Positions 5,001-10,745 of a stretch of DNA of 34,158 nt are shown piece after piece. Under the pieces are notes generated by a model. The model was not told the origin of the DNA and ran no database searches. It saw only the letters and a program-made list of their open reading frames with translations. The DNA is from a bacterium (GTDB taxonomy: Bacteria; Desulfobacterota_D; UBA1144). A program made the position numbers and the translations under genes. The stretch lies in NCBI GenBank assembly GCA_002708105.2, contig PAOQ02000017.1:1-34158 (forward strand), given 5' to 3'. Each line of letters opens with the position of its first letter. The stretch's first letter is position 1.

Positions 5001-5618
5001 ATGGACAAGAGCTTGATCGTTAAGAATTTAAATAAATCTTTTAACAATTTAAATGTATTTCACGGTATAAGTTTTGAAGTTAAACCAGGAACCATAGTTA
5101 ATTTATCAGGACCCAATGGATCAGGAAAAACAACTTTAATGAGAATTATTAGCTCTCAAATATTAGATTATGAGGGAGAAGTTGCTATTGGAGATAAAAA
5201 TATTATAGATTTTGATAAAGAAATATTTAGTATAATTTATTATGTTGCTCCTTATTCAAGTCTGTATGAGCATTTAACCTTAAGTGAGAATATTAATTTC
5301 TTTATTGCCTTGAATAATCTTAAAGATAAGAATCAGAAAAATCTCTTAATAAAGAGATTTAAGTTAGAAAGTCATCTTTCTAGAAAAATTCATGAACTTT
5401 CTGACGGCACGCGAAAAAAAGTTTCTATCTTAATACTATTTCTTATAAATCCTGATTTTTGCATATTGGATGAACCATATACATATCTTGATGAAGAGTC
5501 ATCACTTGTTTTGAATGAATTGATTTATGATTATCAGAAGCAGGGCAAATCTTTTTTAATTACGGATAATTCATTAGCCTCTAAAAATCTTAATTTTAAT
5601 GGAGTTGTTGAATTATAA
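5001..5618 (+). CDS. ccmA: Heme exporter ATP-binding protein CcmA (divergent)
   Basis: A 205-aa ABC ATPase, standard CcmA length, working with CcmB and CcmC; in System I the ATPase drives release of holo-CcmE. Walker A is GPNGSGKTT (37-45), the signature is a modified LSDGTRKK (133-140), and Walker B with the catalytic Glu is FCILDEP (Asp157-Glu158). The switch-loop His expected after the last core strand is absent: the segment reads FLITDNS (185-191) where related proteins have a T-T-H type sequence. The Q-loop region YYVAPYSS also lacks a clear Gln. Assignment as ccmA rests on ccmB, ccmC, ccmE and ccmF following directly. No Shine-Dalgarno precedes the ATG. Confidence 0.9.
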   Translation: MDKSLIVKNLNKSFNNLNVFHGISFEVKPGTIVNLSGPNGSGKTTLMRIISSQILDYEGEVAIGDKNIIDFDKEIFSIIYYVAPYSSLYEHLTLSENINFFIALNNLKDKNQKNLLIKRFKLESHLSRKIHELSDGTRKKVSILILFLINPDFCILDEPYTYLDEESSLVLNELIYDYQKQGKSFLITDNSLASKNLNFNGVVEL

Positions 5619-5622
5619 GATT

Positions 5623-6288
5623 ATGGATAGTTTTATTCAGAAAGTTATTTTGATCTTCATGAAAGACTTAAAGACTGAAATAAGAGAGAAGCTCAATGTA
5701 GTATATCTTTTTATTTTGTGCCCGACTTTGTCTTTAATAATGTTTATTTTTTTAGGTGAAAAAAGTATGGTCGAATTATTCTTTTTGACTTGTTTAATTG
5801 TTGCACTAGTAGCAAATCAAAGAATCTCTCGGCAGGAAATATCTGTAGGGGGTGAATTAATACTTATTTCTGCACCAATTGATTTATCAATTCTATGCTT
5901 CAGTAAGATTCTTTTTTTCATATTCATTAATGTTTTTATTAACATTATTGTTTTTATAACATTATTTATGCTCTCGAATAATTTTATTCTTATAGATTTC
6001 ATCGGCTTTTCTTTTTTATGTCTATTATTCACAATAGGACTATCAAGTATTCTTTGTACATTTTCTTTAATGCTTGAGAGGATTAAGGGTGAGGGCCAGT
6101 TTATGTTTATCCTGATCTATCCACTAATTGTTCCTTTTCTTGTATTAAGCTATAATTCAATTAATTTATTGGGCCTGCTTCCTTCTGAAGAATTCTTCTC
6201 CTCCTTTGCTTTGCAAGGATTAGCAGCTTTTGATATACTTCTTTTGACTATTTGCCCGATACTTTTTAGTTATTCTATTAGAAGGTGA
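5623..6288 (+). CDS. ccmB: Heme exporter permease CcmB
   Basis: A 221-aa integral membrane protein with about six hydrophobic helices, matching the length of E. coli CcmB (220 aa). The N-terminus has the family-type cytoplasmic segment FMKDLKTEIREKLNVVY before the first helix. The frame is open a little further upstream (ATG 5599), but the ATG at 5623 begins 4 bases after the ccmA stop and gives the expected N-terminus. It partners CcmA in the CcmABCD complex. Sequence is highly Ile/Phe/Leu-rich, so assignment relies on topology, length and position in the operon. Confidence 0.9.
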   Translation: MDSFIQKVILIFMKDLKTEIREKLNVVYLFILCPTLSLIMFIFLGEKSMVELFFLTCLIVALVANQRISRQEISVGGELILISAPIDLSILCFSKILFFIFINVFINIIVFITLFMLSNNFILIDFIGFSFLCLLFTIGLSSILCTFSLMLERIKGEGQFMFILIYPLIVPFLVLSYNSINLLGLLPSEEFFSSFALQGLAAFDILLLTICPILFSYSIRR

Positions 6289-6291
6289 TAT

Positions 6292-6924
6292 ATGTTTTTG
6301 TTTTTTAGAAAGTATTCTTTCATTTTTTTTGTAATCTTTATGACAGTCTCTCTTTATATGATCTTTCTATATGCTCCAAGAGAAAGGATTATGGGTGACG
6401 TCCAAAGGATATTTTATTTCCATATGGGCTATGTCCTTGTATTTACAATTGCCTATATAATGAATTTGATTTATTCAATAAAATTTTTAAAAAATAATAA
6501 AAATAGTGACTCAGACTTAGCATATATTAATGCTGAAATTGGGACGTTGTTCACTTTGCTTACTCTAGTTTCTGGAATGATTTGGGCTAAGCCAGTATGG
6601 GGGACTTGGTGGACATCGGATCCTCAACTTACTACAACGTTAATTTTATTCATTCTTTATTTTACCTATTTGGTCTTTCATAAATTAGCTGTTAAATCAG
6701 GTGTTCCTAGATATTCTTCAGTATTTGCAATAATTGCATTTATTGATTTACCTATTGTATATATTTCAGTAAGAATAATGAGGGGCATATCCCCGGTGGT
6801 ATTTGGTGGTGATGGTGGAGGGATTTCATCTGAAATGATGGATACTTTGCTTGTCACTTTTGCCGCATTCTTCTTCTTGTACATTTACCTATTAGACATA
6901 AGAATAAAGGTAGATAAAATATAA
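6292..6924 (+). CDS. ccmC: Heme handling protein CcmC (variant heme-ligand residues)
   Basis: A 210-aa membrane protein with six hydrophobic segments. It belongs to the heme handling family that loads heme onto CcmE at the periplasmic face. The first conserved His is present (His44 in IFYFHMGY). The tryptophan-rich loop reads WGTWWTSDPQLTT (103-115), where the family normally has a third Trp before Asp and an Arg before Leu-Thr. The second conserved periplasmic His is missing: the expected position after SVRxxR is Ser167 in RIMRGISPVV (161-170). The gene starts 3 bases after ccmB. Despite these changes, length, helix layout and operon position make CcmC the best call. Confidence 0.9.
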   Translation: MFLFFRKYSFIFFVIFMTVSLYMIFLYAPRERIMGDVQRIFYFHMGYVLVFTIAYIMNLIYSIKFLKNNKNSDSDLAYINAEIGTLFTLLTLVSGMIWAKPVWGTWWTSDPQLTTTLILFILYFTYLVFHKLAVKSGVPRYSSVFAIIAFIDLPIVYISVRIMRGISPVVFGGDGGGISSEMMDTLLVTFAAFFFLYIYLLDIRIKVDKI

Positions 6925-6945
6925 TTGGAAGTTAATATAAATAAC

Positions 6946-7059
6946 ATGAATTTTATTATTGATTCGTTAGAATATCTCTTTTATTCTCAACTTGCTTTTT
7001 GGGGGATTCTTCTAGCTTATCTTTTTTATATTAATCGTAAGATGAATGGTAGAGATTGA
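6946..7059 (+). CDS. ccmD: CcmD-like small membrane protein
   Basis: A 37-aa reading frame fills the gap between ccmC and ccmE. It has an N-terminal segment (MNFIIDSLEYLFYSQ), one hydrophobic helix (about 16-30, AFWGILLAYLFY) and a basic tail (INRKMNGRD). Size, single helix, Tyr/Phe at the helix and location match CcmD, the small subunit that links CcmC and CcmE in System I. Its TGA stop shares the A with the ccmE ATG. CcmD is poorly conserved in sequence, so the call rests on context and topology. Confidence 0.75.
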   Translation: MNFIIDSLEYLFYSQLAFWGILLAYLFYINRKMNGRD

Positions 7060-7475
7060 TGTCGTCCCCAAAGAAAAAAATTAAGATTTTTGTTTGTGTT
7101 TTAATATTATTTTTCTCTTTTTTAATATTTAAGGCTGTTGAGTCCTCTTTAGTCTACTATCTAACTGTTACAGAAGCTCTTGAAAGTAAATCGAAAAGTA
7201 AGATTAAAAGGCTTAGGGTTTCAGGTATTGTCGAAAAAGGATCAATTAAAAAGAATATCGATGGTTCGATAACATTTAATATTACAGATTTCGAGAAAAT
7301 TATTCATGTCAGATATAAAGGGGAAATTCCGGATATTTTTAAAGATGAGATTGAAGCTGTTGTTGAAGGGGAGTTGGTTGACAAGACTTTTATCGCAAAT
7401 AAATTATTTGCTAAATGTCCTACAAAATATGAAGATGAACCAGTTTTGAATGATAAGGTAAGCTTTGCTAAATAA
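7059..7475 (+). CDS. ccmE: Cytochrome c maturation heme chaperone CcmE, CxxxY variant
   Basis: A 138-aa protein with an N-terminal membrane anchor (about 8-25, IKIFVCVLILFFSFLIF) and a beta-barrel OB-fold domain (VTEAL, LRVSGIVEKGSI, GSITFNITD, YKGEIPDIFKDEIEAVVEG, FIANKLFAKCPTKY). Classical CcmE binds heme covalently through His in an HxxxY motif; here the position is Cys120 in KCPTKY, with Tyr124 conserved. This is the CxxxY type known from archaea and some sulfate-reducing bacteria (System I*). ATG at 7059 overlaps the ccmD stop by one base; a TTG directly before it is less likely. The 3' end overlaps the ccmF start. Confidence 0.95.
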   Translation: MSSPKKKIKIFVCVLILFFSFLIFKAVESSLVYYLTVTEALESKSKSKIKRLRVSGIVEKGSIKKNIDGSITFNITDFEKIIHVRYKGEIPDIFKDEIEAVVEGELVDKTFIANKLFAKCPTKYEDEPVLNDKVSFAK

Positions 7476-9387
7476 TATTGGTGAAACAACACTTTTTATG
7501 TCCTTTCTTGTTGGTATTGCTGGACTTGTATCTTTCTTCTTTGGAATACGAAATAAGGATAACAACTTAGTAGCGATTGGAGAGCGGTCAATATCCGCAA
7601 TTTTTATACTTTTAAGCCTATCAGTGTTAACTTTAATATATCTTTTAGTCTCGAAAGATTATACCAATGCATATGTAGCTAAAAATGTAAGCAATGATTT
7701 ATCTCTAGTGTATTCAATAGCATCTTTATGGGCGGGTCAGGAAGGATCACTTTTATTATGGGCATGGATTTTATCATTTTATAATTTTACCGTAAGGTCT
7801 TCTAAGTCATCTAAAACCTTAATCGTCTCTTCAGAAGGTATTTGCCAATTTATATTAGTTTTTTTTATCTTCTTAATAGTATTTATCGAAAACCCTTTTG
7901 AGTCTTTAGATGCTCCTCCTTTAAATGGAAGGGGACTGAATCCCATCTTGCAAAATTTTTATATGGCTATACACCCTCTAACTTTATACGTTGGATACAT
8001 AGCTCTCACAATACCTTTTGCTTTTGGATTGGGATCGATTCTCTCAAAAGATAAAACAGATGACTGGGTTCTTTATAGTAGAAGGTGGACATATTTTAGT
8101 TGGATATTTCTTTCCTTAGGTCTACTGCTTGGTTCAAGATGGGCATATTTAGAGCTAGGATGGGGTGGTTATTGGGCATGGGACCCTGTAGAGAATGTTG
8201 CTTTAATGCCATGGTTAGCACTTACCGCTTTTGTTCATTCTTCAATGGCTCAAGAGACAAGGAGTCTACTTCGAAAATGGAATATATCATTGATTTTCAT
8301 AGCTTTTTTCCTTTCAATCTTTGGAACTTTTATAACTAGAAGCGGTTTAATATCTTCAGTCCATTCTTTTGCGCAATCAAGCATTGGCTCTTATTTTATT
8401 ATATTCATTCTTTTTATAGTAGTTTTTTCAATTTTTATGTATCAAAAAAATAAAAAATTCATTATATCGGTTGAAGAAATTATTTCATTAGTTTCAAAAG
8501 AAAACTTTTTAATTTTTAATAATATTTTTTTTCTAGTTATAACTTTAACTGTTTTTCTAGGTACTGTATTCCCAATTATATCTGAGGCCATTACAGGCGA
8601 AAAAGTTCTAGTTGGCCCAACTTTTTATGATTTAGTAAATTTCCCTAATGTCTTACTTTTAATGTCATTAATGTCAATTGCTCCAATAATTCCATGGAAG
8701 GATGGAAACTTTAAAGATATATATTCTGTAGTATTTAAACCATTACTTCTTTCAGTGATAGCTACAGTTGTTTTTTCTCTTTATTTTAGTGATATAAAAG
8801 TCTTATCTGTTCTTTTCCTTTCTTCCTTTGTCACAGCAATTATTGTGCAAGATTTAATTTTTGATTTCAAAAAGTTAACTAAAGGAAACCTAACTTTTGT
8901 GGATATTTTGAATAAAAGACTTAGAAGATACTGTGCTTTTATTATTCATTTTGGAATTATTATTCTTATTATAGGAATAACATTATCCTCCTCATATGGA
9001 ACTAAATCAGACTTTATTCTAACTAAGGGAGATAGCGTTGTTGTTAGTAATTATAAGATAAAACTTATTAATACATATAAAAAAGAAAATGAAGCAAAGA
9101 GTATACTTGGCGCAAAGCTTTTATTGCGAGATAAAAACAAAGAATTTTTACTTTTTCCGGAACAAAATCTTTATAAATATGAAGGAAATAGAGAAATTAA
9201 CAAAGAAACAGAAGTTGCAATCTATAATACAATCAAAAAAGACTATTACATTATTCTTATTGATGAGCTGGAAGGAGGCAGATTTAATTTTAAAATTTAT
9301 GTTAACCCATGGGTCTCTCTCCTTTGGATTGGAAGTTTGATTTCAATACTTGGCGGAATAGTTATTATATTAAGAAGGAGGGTTTAA
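7465..9387 (+). CDS. ccmF: Cytochrome c heme lyase subunit CcmF
   Basis: A 640-aa polytopic membrane protein that transfers heme from CcmE to apocytochrome c. The WWD-type loop reads WGGYWAWDPVENVALMPW (233-250). All four histidines expected for the family are visible: His170 (AIHPLTLY) and His300 (SSVHSFA) for the periplasmic pair, His258 (FVHSS) and His495 (IIHFG) for the transmembrane heme b. I favour TTG at 7465, which overlaps ccmE by 11 bases, because the Ile-Gly near residue 5 matches family N-termini; ATG at 7498 is the alternative. The stop overlaps the next gene's ATG by one base. Confidence 0.96.
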   Translation: MLNNIGETTLFMSFLVGIAGLVSFFFGIRNKDNNLVAIGERSISAIFILLSLSVLTLIYLLVSKDYTNAYVAKNVSNDLSLVYSIASLWAGQEGSLLLWAWILSFYNFTVRSSKSSKTLIVSSEGICQFILVFFIFLIVFIENPFESLDAPPLNGRGLNPILQNFYMAIHPLTLYVGYIALTIPFAFGLGSILSKDKTDDWVLYSRRWTYFSWIFLSLGLLLGSRWAYLELGWGGYWAWDPVENVALMPWLALTAFVHSSMAQETRSLLRKWNISLIFIAFFLSIFGTFITRSGLISSVHSFAQSSIGSYFIIFILFIVVFSIFMYQKNKKFIISVEEIISLVSKENFLIFNNIFFLVITLTVFLGTVFPIISEAITGEKVLVGPTFYDLVNFPNVLLLMSLMSIAPIIPWKDGNFKDIYSVVFKPLLLSVIATVVFSLYFSDIKVLSVLFLSSFVTAIIVQDLIFDFKKLTKGNLTFVDILNKRLRRYCAFIIHFGIIILIIGITLSSSYGTKSDFILTKGDSVVVSNYKIKLINTYKKENEAKSILGAKLLLRDKNKEFLLFPEQNLYKYEGNREINKETEVAIYNTIKKDYYIILIDELEGGRFNFKIYVNPWVSLLWIGSLISILGGIVIILRRRV

Positions 9388-9497
9388 TGCTTGAAATTTT
9401 ATCAACCGTTTTTATATCGATCTTATCCTTAGTATACGTATTCTATCCTCTTATAGATGATTCTTTAGTGAAAAAAGAAGTAGATTGGGATAATTAA
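9387..9497 (+). CDS. 36-aa single-pass membrane peptide in the ccm operon
   Basis: A small reading frame (MLEILSTVFISILSLVYVF at its N-terminus) directly after ccmF, sharing one base with the ccmF stop. A near-perfect Shine-Dalgarno (AGGAGGG) lies 5 bases before the ATG, one of the strongest in the window, which argues that it is translated. It has one hydrophobic helix (about 3-21), then a Pro-Leu and an acidic tail ending in VDWDN. Its layout recalls the first membrane segment of CcmI, but the similarity is too short to prove. It is followed after 3 bases by the cytochrome gene. No known function can be assigned. Confidence 0.6.
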   Translation: MLEILSTVFISILSLVYVFYPLIDDSLVKKEVDWDN

Positions 9498-9500
9498 AAT

Positions 9501-10745
9501 ATGAGATTTATTATTTTTTTGGTATTTCTTTTCCTACCTTTTTTTTCTGAATCAAAAGACGATGATATTTTATCCTTAGAACAACTTTATATTCAAAAAA
9601 AATGTATAACTTGCCATGTTGTTGGAAGAGGGAGATTCGTTGGCCCTGACCTTTATAATGTCTTTGATAAATATACAGAAAGTGAAATTGCTCAATGGAT
9701 TAAAAATCCCCAAGAGATTTATAAGAAAAAAAATAAAATGCCAATTAACGATGGTTACCCACCTATGCCATATATGAATGTAAATAACGACGAAGCTAAA
9801 AAACTAATTAAATATATTAAGTTAACTCGGAAGTCAGTTAAAAAAGGTACGAAAGTAAGTATTAAAGGGAATATTTTAAATTTTACTAGAAATGAACCAT
9901 TAAATAATCAAAAGGTGGAATTAGAATCTGTTATGGCAGATAAAGTAACAAGCAAGGATGAAATAGTTACTAATCAGGGTGAGTTTATTTTTAAGAAACT
10001 CCTAGGAAATATAGCTTACAGAATTAAGATCTTTTATGATGGAATTGAATACTCAACAGATAAATTTTATTTTTTACCTCGGGAGAATGAAAAAAACGTA
10101 GAACTCACTGTTTACGAGTCCACACAAGATAAAAAAAATATTAGCATTAAGTCATCACATTTCATAATCAGCTATGATGAGGATGCGAATTCAATTGTCT
10201 TTGCGGAGATTGTTAATATCGAAAATAAGTCAAGGAGTATATTCGTTGGTCAAAATGATTTTAGTGAGAAAGTTCGTAAAATAAATTCTTATCCATTATT
10301 TCCTAAAATAACAAACTTAGGATTCCCTCATAGAAGTAGGGATACTTTTATAATTTCTGAAGATAGTGTCACAGATACTTTGCCTATGCCCCCTGGTAAC
10401 AGAAGAGTAGTTTTTACATATGTTAAAAATCTTAATTTATTTTCAACTAAGTTATCACGTGTGTTTTTAAACGATATTGATAGCTTGACTCTTATTGTTC
10501 CTGAAAATAAGCTTTCTATGGAAATAAATGGATTAAATTATACAAAGAAGAAATCTGAAATTGCTGATTTGCCAAATGAGGAATATACAACATATTCATT
10601 AGTAAATATAAAGAAAGGTGATCAGATAGAATTAGTTTTTAAAAAATATGATATTTTTCAAAATCCTAAGGTAATTACATTTACAATATTTGTTATATTT
10701 ATATTTGGAATATTTTTGTATAAAAGATCAAAAAAATTTAGCTGA
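9501..10745 (+). CDS. Membrane-anchored monoheme cytochrome c with a C-terminal beta-sandwich-like region
   Basis: A 414-aa exported protein. Residues 1-17 form a signal peptide (MRFIIFLVFLFLPFFS). A class I cytochrome c domain follows, with heme motif CITCH (Cys35, Cys38, His39) and likely axial Met89 in YPPMPY. Residues about 116-195 resemble a carboxypeptidase regulatory-like beta-sandwich (SIKGNILNF, GEFIFKKLLGNIAYRI). A further beta-rich region reaches about 385, and one C-terminal helix (about 393-407) plus a basic tail anchors it with the bulk outside. It is the last gene of the ccm operon, so it may be a substrate or a helper of the maturation machine. I do not know this exact domain combination. 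Confidence 0.85.
   Translation: MRFIIFLVFLFLPFFSESKDDDILSLEQLYIQKKCITCHVVGRGRFVGPDLYNVFDKYTESEIAQWIKNPQEIYKKKNKMPINDGYPPMPYMNVNNDEAKKLIKYIKLTRKSVKKGTKVSIKGNILNFTRNEPLNNQKVELESVMADKVTSKDEIVTNQGEFIFKKLLGNIAYRIKIFYDGIEYSTDKFYFLPRENEKNVELTVYESTQDKKNISIKSSHFIISYDEDANSIVFAEIVNIENKSRSIFVGQNDFSEKVRKINSYPLFPKITNLGFPHRSRDTFIISEDSVTDTLPMPPGNRRVVFTYVKNLNLFSTKLSRVFLNDIDSLTLIVPENKLSMEINGLNYTKKKSEIADLPNEEYTTYSLVNIKKGDQIELVFKKYDIFQNPKVITFTIFVIFIFGIFLYKRSKKFS

Follow-up and report, generated by a model that had tools for sequence, protein, structure and literature searches.

Serine in place of the second periplasmic heme-ligand histidine in a clade of bacterial CcmC proteins

Results

The ccm operon

The window, the whole 34,158-nucleotide stretch of DNA that was analysed, carries a compact operon with the order ccmA-like, ccmB-like, ccmC, a ccmD-like 44-aa ORF, ccmE, ccmF and a c-type cytochrome gene, all on the + strand. 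The genome, that of a marine member of Candidatus Dadabacteria, is a 0.9-Mb draft; among named relatives, the nearest are MAGs of marine origin that carry the label Candidatus Dadabacteria or Deltaproteobacteria. The CcmA-like ABC ATPase (5001–5618) matched Pfam ABC_tran (5e-24), and its best NCBIfam match was ccmA (1e-32), under the cut-off of that model. The CcmB-like membrane protein (5599–6288) gave a weak match to ABC2_membrane_5 (2e-4) and is placed between ccmA and ccmC. CcmC itself (6292–6924) is followed by the CcmD-like single-helix ORF with a TTG start (6925–7059), situated between ccmC and ccmE; no Pfam match was found for this ORF, and an EYLFYSQxAxW pattern is kept in its relatives. 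CcmE (7056–7475; Pfam CcmE, 7e-27) exhibits the heme-binding motif CPTKY (Cys120, Tyr124), which is of the CxxxY form and assigns the system to the Cys-type System I.

The CcmF protein (7465–9387; Pfam CcmF_C and Cytochrom_C_asm) has an intact WWD loop and His at the positions of E. coli residues 173, 261, 303 and 491, so that all four heme histidines are present, including its own P-His1 and P-His2. The same four were kept in 35/35 loci encoding a serine-type CcmC (described below), which suggests that only the CcmC step is altered. Directly 3' of ccmF lies a short single-helix ORF (MLEILSTVFISILSLVYVFYPL...; 9388–9497, + strand) with no family match. The monoheme c-type cytochrome (CITCH motif; 9501–10745; Pfam Cytochrom_C, 5e-9) is a likely client of the ccm pathway.

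A CcmH was found on contig C18 of the same genome, together with three cytochrome c domains in the genome as a whole. The search for System II with the ResB profile gave a single weak match, inside ccmF and under the cut-off, and System II therefore appears to be absent. The genome's second Cytochrom_C_asm (PF01578) protein (L003:1471–2253, − strand, contig C8 of G000) is HemX-like, is without the WWD motif and adjoins a peptide release factor gene. A System II backup that relaxes the demands on CcmC was accordingly rejected.

Identity and fold of CcmC

The ccmC ORF encodes a protein of 210 aa. It scored 81.3 bits against the Pfam domain Cytochrom_C_asm (1e-22; cut-off 29.9), and its best NCBIfam match was TIGR01191 ccmC (1e-29), at 103.5 bits against a curated cut-off of 186. 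Its gene shares the operon with ccmAB, ccmE and ccmF, in keeping with a System I CcmC. The AlphaFold model (pLDDT 86) shows the six-helix CcmC fold, and the best PDB matches were the E. coli CcmC chains 8ce1_C and 7f02_C (TM 0.80–0.81, probability 1.00). In the model, His44 lies within the second long helix and the WWD loop connects the next two helices. Ser167 precedes the last helix, in a poorly ordered loop that also holds P-His2 in E. coli. This is loop 5, a mobile segment for which the model is poor (pLDDT <60).

The two heme-ligand positions

His44 (6421–6423, CAT) corresponds to P-His1 (E. coli His60) and is invariant in all aligned CcmC. The position of P-His2 (E. coli His184) is occupied by Ser167 (6790–6792, TCC). 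The sequence-only reading had proposed exactly this pair of residues, and the codons of the ORF and the alignment confirm it. Ser167 falls unambiguously on the P-His2 column, which reads RGISPVV here, RGVHPVV in L135, RGIHPVV in L114 and TLHQG in E. coli. The only histidines of the protein are His44 and His130, none being found within loop 5 (residues 156–185). A His shifted along loop 5 was also considered for the clade and rejected, as none is conserved: members of family f253 have a downstream His (TSHS or TTHS), but in L212, also from f253, the residue is Arg.

In a non-redundant alignment, from which L187 and the HxxxY contig L088 (see below) were excluded, every row had His at P-His1 (29/29 in the clade, 111/111 elsewhere), and P-His2 was Ser in 29/29 clade rows and His in all 111 other, diverse CcmC. 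Ser was present in all 52 Dadabacteria CcmC that were read, in the contexts RGISPVV, RGVSPIV and RDISPVV. As these came from 52 independently assembled genomes, chance, contamination and assembly error were excluded as the source of Ser167.

The wider survey took in 387 genomes, for the most part one or two from each bacterial family beyond the class of the window, and gave about 95 further CcmC; the sampling was bacterial throughout. Every survey CcmC that covered the site had His except L113, which has Ser, and L187, a lone divergent CcmC-like ORF. Among the relatives of the L113 genome, serine-type proteins were found in three more families, bringing this second bacterial lineage to 14 genomes from four families. 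Evidence against the assignment was looked for: no other His stood at the ligand position, and Ser occurred in no other sampled CcmC. Phrase searches of the open-access literature found no report of a natural CcmC that lacks P-His2.

Several unusual loci were encountered during the survey. L187 (6971–7984, − strand), from another genome, lacks both P-His1 (FYFYFSF) and P-His2 (TLFPAQ); no ccmE was found nearby, and it is perhaps a decayed or repurposed CcmC. In the CcmC of L086 and L087, which belong to family f3 in the Dadabacteria class, one extra residue is inserted in the WWD loop (WWVWWDAQLQA) and one more ahead of the serine (VVKRDISPVV); no ccmE was found in the stretch read. One Dadabacteria MAG (G011) contains a second ccm cluster, L088, on contig C21 (7,957 bases). 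This cluster is of the HxxxY type with a normal P-His2, its CcmC is only distantly related to the MAG's own, and it is likely a contaminant contig.

The WWD loop

The residues typical of the WWD loop are present (W98, W103, W106, W107 and D110), the loop itself extending from W103 to L113 (WGTWWTSDPQL; 6598–6630). Two changes within it had been pointed out from the sequence, Ser109 for Trp and Gln112 for Arg, and both are there, though only the latter belongs to the trait of the clade. Gln112 (6625–6627, CAA; E. coli R128) was found in 28/29 clade rows and 3/111 others. Ser109 (6616–6618, TCG; E. coli W125) is limited, within the clade, to the genus of the window, with Thr in one sister genus and Trp in the rest. 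The same WWTSDPQL sequence also occurs in L066, the His-retaining CcmC of a Flavobacteriales genome, and Ser109 was consequently not counted as part of the trait. The pairing of Gln112 with Ser167 has exceptions in both directions, L189 having Ser with Arg and L135 having His with Gln.

Phylogeny and codon usage

When the loop 5 columns were left out of the tree, the serine-type proteins formed one clade (SH-aLRT 98) holding a single His-bearing lineage, L135/L205; the split of the clade inside the second bacterial lineage had moderate support. None of 500 shuffles was as clustered as the serine type. The two nested proteins, L135 and L205 (genomes G274 and G388), have His at P-His2 (RGVHPVV) and still have Gln at the Arg position. 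A serine group without L135 as one clade was rejected by the AU test (p 0.018, for a group picked after the sequences had been seen and with a bootstrap not fully settled), and a reversal from Ser to His or a repeated loss of His has therefore occurred.

Of 66 distinct proteins, 63 encode the serine by TCN and three by AGC. Since these codons are two base changes apart, the retention of Ser across both indicates selection on the amino acid. Judged from these sequences, the loss of P-His2 is an old and conserved change, and by its descent within the CcmC tree the window protein is to be regarded as a CcmC variant lacking P-His2 and not as a standard member.

The CcmE partner

The CcmE of serine-type loci had CPT[KR]Y in all 56 cases where it was read, and no serine-type CcmC was accompanied by an HxxxY CcmE. 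The partners of His-type CcmC had CPS, CAS or other Cys motifs (54), CPT (4, two of these being the L135/L205 lineage) or HxxxY (35). Cys and Tyr of the CcmE motif were invariant in 59/59, and Thr122 was likewise present in 59/59 as compared with 4/57 other Cys-type CcmE; no conserved His was found in CcmE.

It had been suggested that loss of the His co-varies with the Cys of CcmE. The pairs that were read do not support this as stated: 58 CxxxY systems outside the serine type, including two from the nested His lineage, and 35 HxxxY systems keep P-His2, the loss being confined to partners with CPT[KR]Y. The Cys of CcmE is therefore not what removes P-His2, and a general co-variation was rejected. 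As the clade has a single origin, the association with CPT is itself worth little more than one event. The broader proposal, a changed heme handling at the CcmC:heme:CcmE stage, is still a fair reading because the loss is real, old and conserved; its link to the CcmE Cys is not supported as stated, and the explanation through that Cys holds only in part.

Discussion

Comparison with known systems

The window CcmC resembles that of E. coli (PDB 7f02, 8ce1) in fold (TM 0.80), place in the operon, P-His1 and WWD loop, and two of the three CcmE-docking residues are kept in kind (E31 and R39 for D47 and R55). It differs in having Met34 for the third docking residue, Q50, Ser167 for His184 and Gln112 for R128, at 26% identity, and its partner CcmE uses Cys instead of the His of the E. 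coli system. CxxxY-type System I is attributed to archaea and some bacteria by Allen 2006 and Goddard 2010, as they are cited in PMC9084895. The present system shares the CxxxY motif of CcmE with that type. Unlike the archaeal form, which has neither CcmH nor CcmD, it is accompanied by the CcmH on contig C18 and by the CcmD-like ORF. With CcmF and CcsBA, CcmC shares the WWD family and a periplasmic heme site. A review describes P-His1 and P-His2 in all members of this family (PMC10663686), CcmF and CcsBA included, and the window CcmC departs from both in lacking P-His2.

A proposed heme site with one histidine

The ORF at 6292–6924 probably encodes a working System I CcmC. The invariance of Cys and Tyr in CcmE and of the four heme histidines in CcmF indicates that the pathway is under constraint, and the intact state of CcmE and CcmF led us to reject a degenerate ccm pathway. 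In the clade, P-His2 has permanently given way to Ser and the heme-contacting Arg of the WWD loop to Gln. Most likely, heme is held by nothing more than P-His1 and the WWD loop and is released without a ligand switch. We give this explanation an even chance of being correct.

The ligation state and the lack of a switch are what we infer from the residues. Periplasmic heme would be held by His44 and the WWD loop, leaving the opposite face open to water or hydroxide, or to Tyr124 of docked CcmE, while Cys120 of the CPTKY motif would bond to a heme vinyl group. The switch from P-His2 to the CcmE Tyr, proposed for release in E. coli (PMC9616876), would be unnecessary, and loop 5 would be left with the part of a mobile lid, or of a lever that CcmB moves. 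A P-His1-only state does exist, as the E. coli cryo-EM structures have heme on P-His1 only, with P-His2 swung toward CcmB (PMC9616876; PMC10457321). What stands against this explanation is that P-His2 is essential in E. coli, where H60A and H184A each abolish holoCcmE and H184A makes no cytochrome c (PMC9616876). Moreover, P-His2 is retained by the majority of CxxxY systems, so that Cys chemistry is not enough by itself to make it superfluous in CcmC, and the regained His of the nested lineage suggests that P-His2 can still be useful. A fuller version, put forward only tentatively, is that the serine type follows a distinct loading route in which one-His heme would have Tyr124 of CcmE as its sixth ligand from the start and form a thioether to Cys120, with no switch from P-His2, a step regarded as shared by CcmC, CcmF and CcsBA.

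A second iron ligand may instead come from elsewhere, from CcmB, CcmD, CcmE or another CcmC residue such as Met34, Met45 or Tyr42. In favour of this, every member of the clade has Met34 and Tyr42, loop 5 is mobile, and the P-His2 loop adjoins CcmB in E. coli (PMC9616876). Met45, however, is found in Dadabacteria only. In a screen of CcmC, no other His, Met, Lys or Cys was both conserved in the clade and specific to it, the only such columns being Gln112, Phe145, Phe171 and Ser167, and apart from Gln112 and Ser167 no ligand-type residue was clade-conserved and rare outside. The screen also took in the window's CcmD-like peptide, which is without His, and CcmE, in which no His is conserved. A one-histidine heme site is favoured by these results, and we regard a ligand from elsewhere as less likely.

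The two clade-specific columns could also be read as a different catalytic set, with P-His2 serving less as a ligand than to assist, together with R128, in proton or redox steps when CcmE is added to the vinyl group, and His-to-Ser and Arg-to-Gln exchanged together, perhaps along with Ser-to-Thr in CcmE. Gln112 and Ser167 are indeed the two most clade-specific heme-site columns, the near-exclusive Thr122 of CcmE fits, and R128 has been suggested to assist adduct chemistry in E. coli (PMC9616876). But these changes share their ancestry, so that their co-occurrence amounts to little more than one event, and L189 and L135 show that they are separable. R128A also works in part in E. coli, where cytochrome c synthesis is 31% with R128A and 79% with R128K (PMC9616876), and R128A complements in Shewanella (PMC11868835). 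An exchanged catalytic set is thus less probable still. That the gene is decaying or has been given another role, with CcmC function dispensable, might be imagined from the small streamlined genome and the essential P-His2 of E. coli (PMC9616876). The gene is conserved throughout an entire phylum and also in the second lineage, its partners are intact, cytochrome clients are present and no System II was found, all of which makes this highly improbable, and the preferred reading is still a working CcmC with heme on P-His1.

Implications

P-His1 and P-His2 have been described as common to CcmC, CcmF and CcsBA, the three WWD proteins, and the switch from P-His2 to Tyr is the basis of the current model for release of CcmE (PMC9616876, PMC10663686). 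Given that H184A abolishes holoCcmE in E. coli, nature provides in the serine type an exception to what has been taken for a universal rule. A phylum-wide clade that is without P-His2 and keeps the rest of the machinery offers a natural experiment for separating the parts of P-His2 in binding, chemistry and release. Sister proteins that differ at this position are available, with Ser in L113 and L191 and His in L135 and L205, and a reporter system for testing them is ready in E. coli. As far as can be told from the sequences, a feature deemed essential is apparently dispensable in nature, and the residue rule derived from E. coli would be contradicted.
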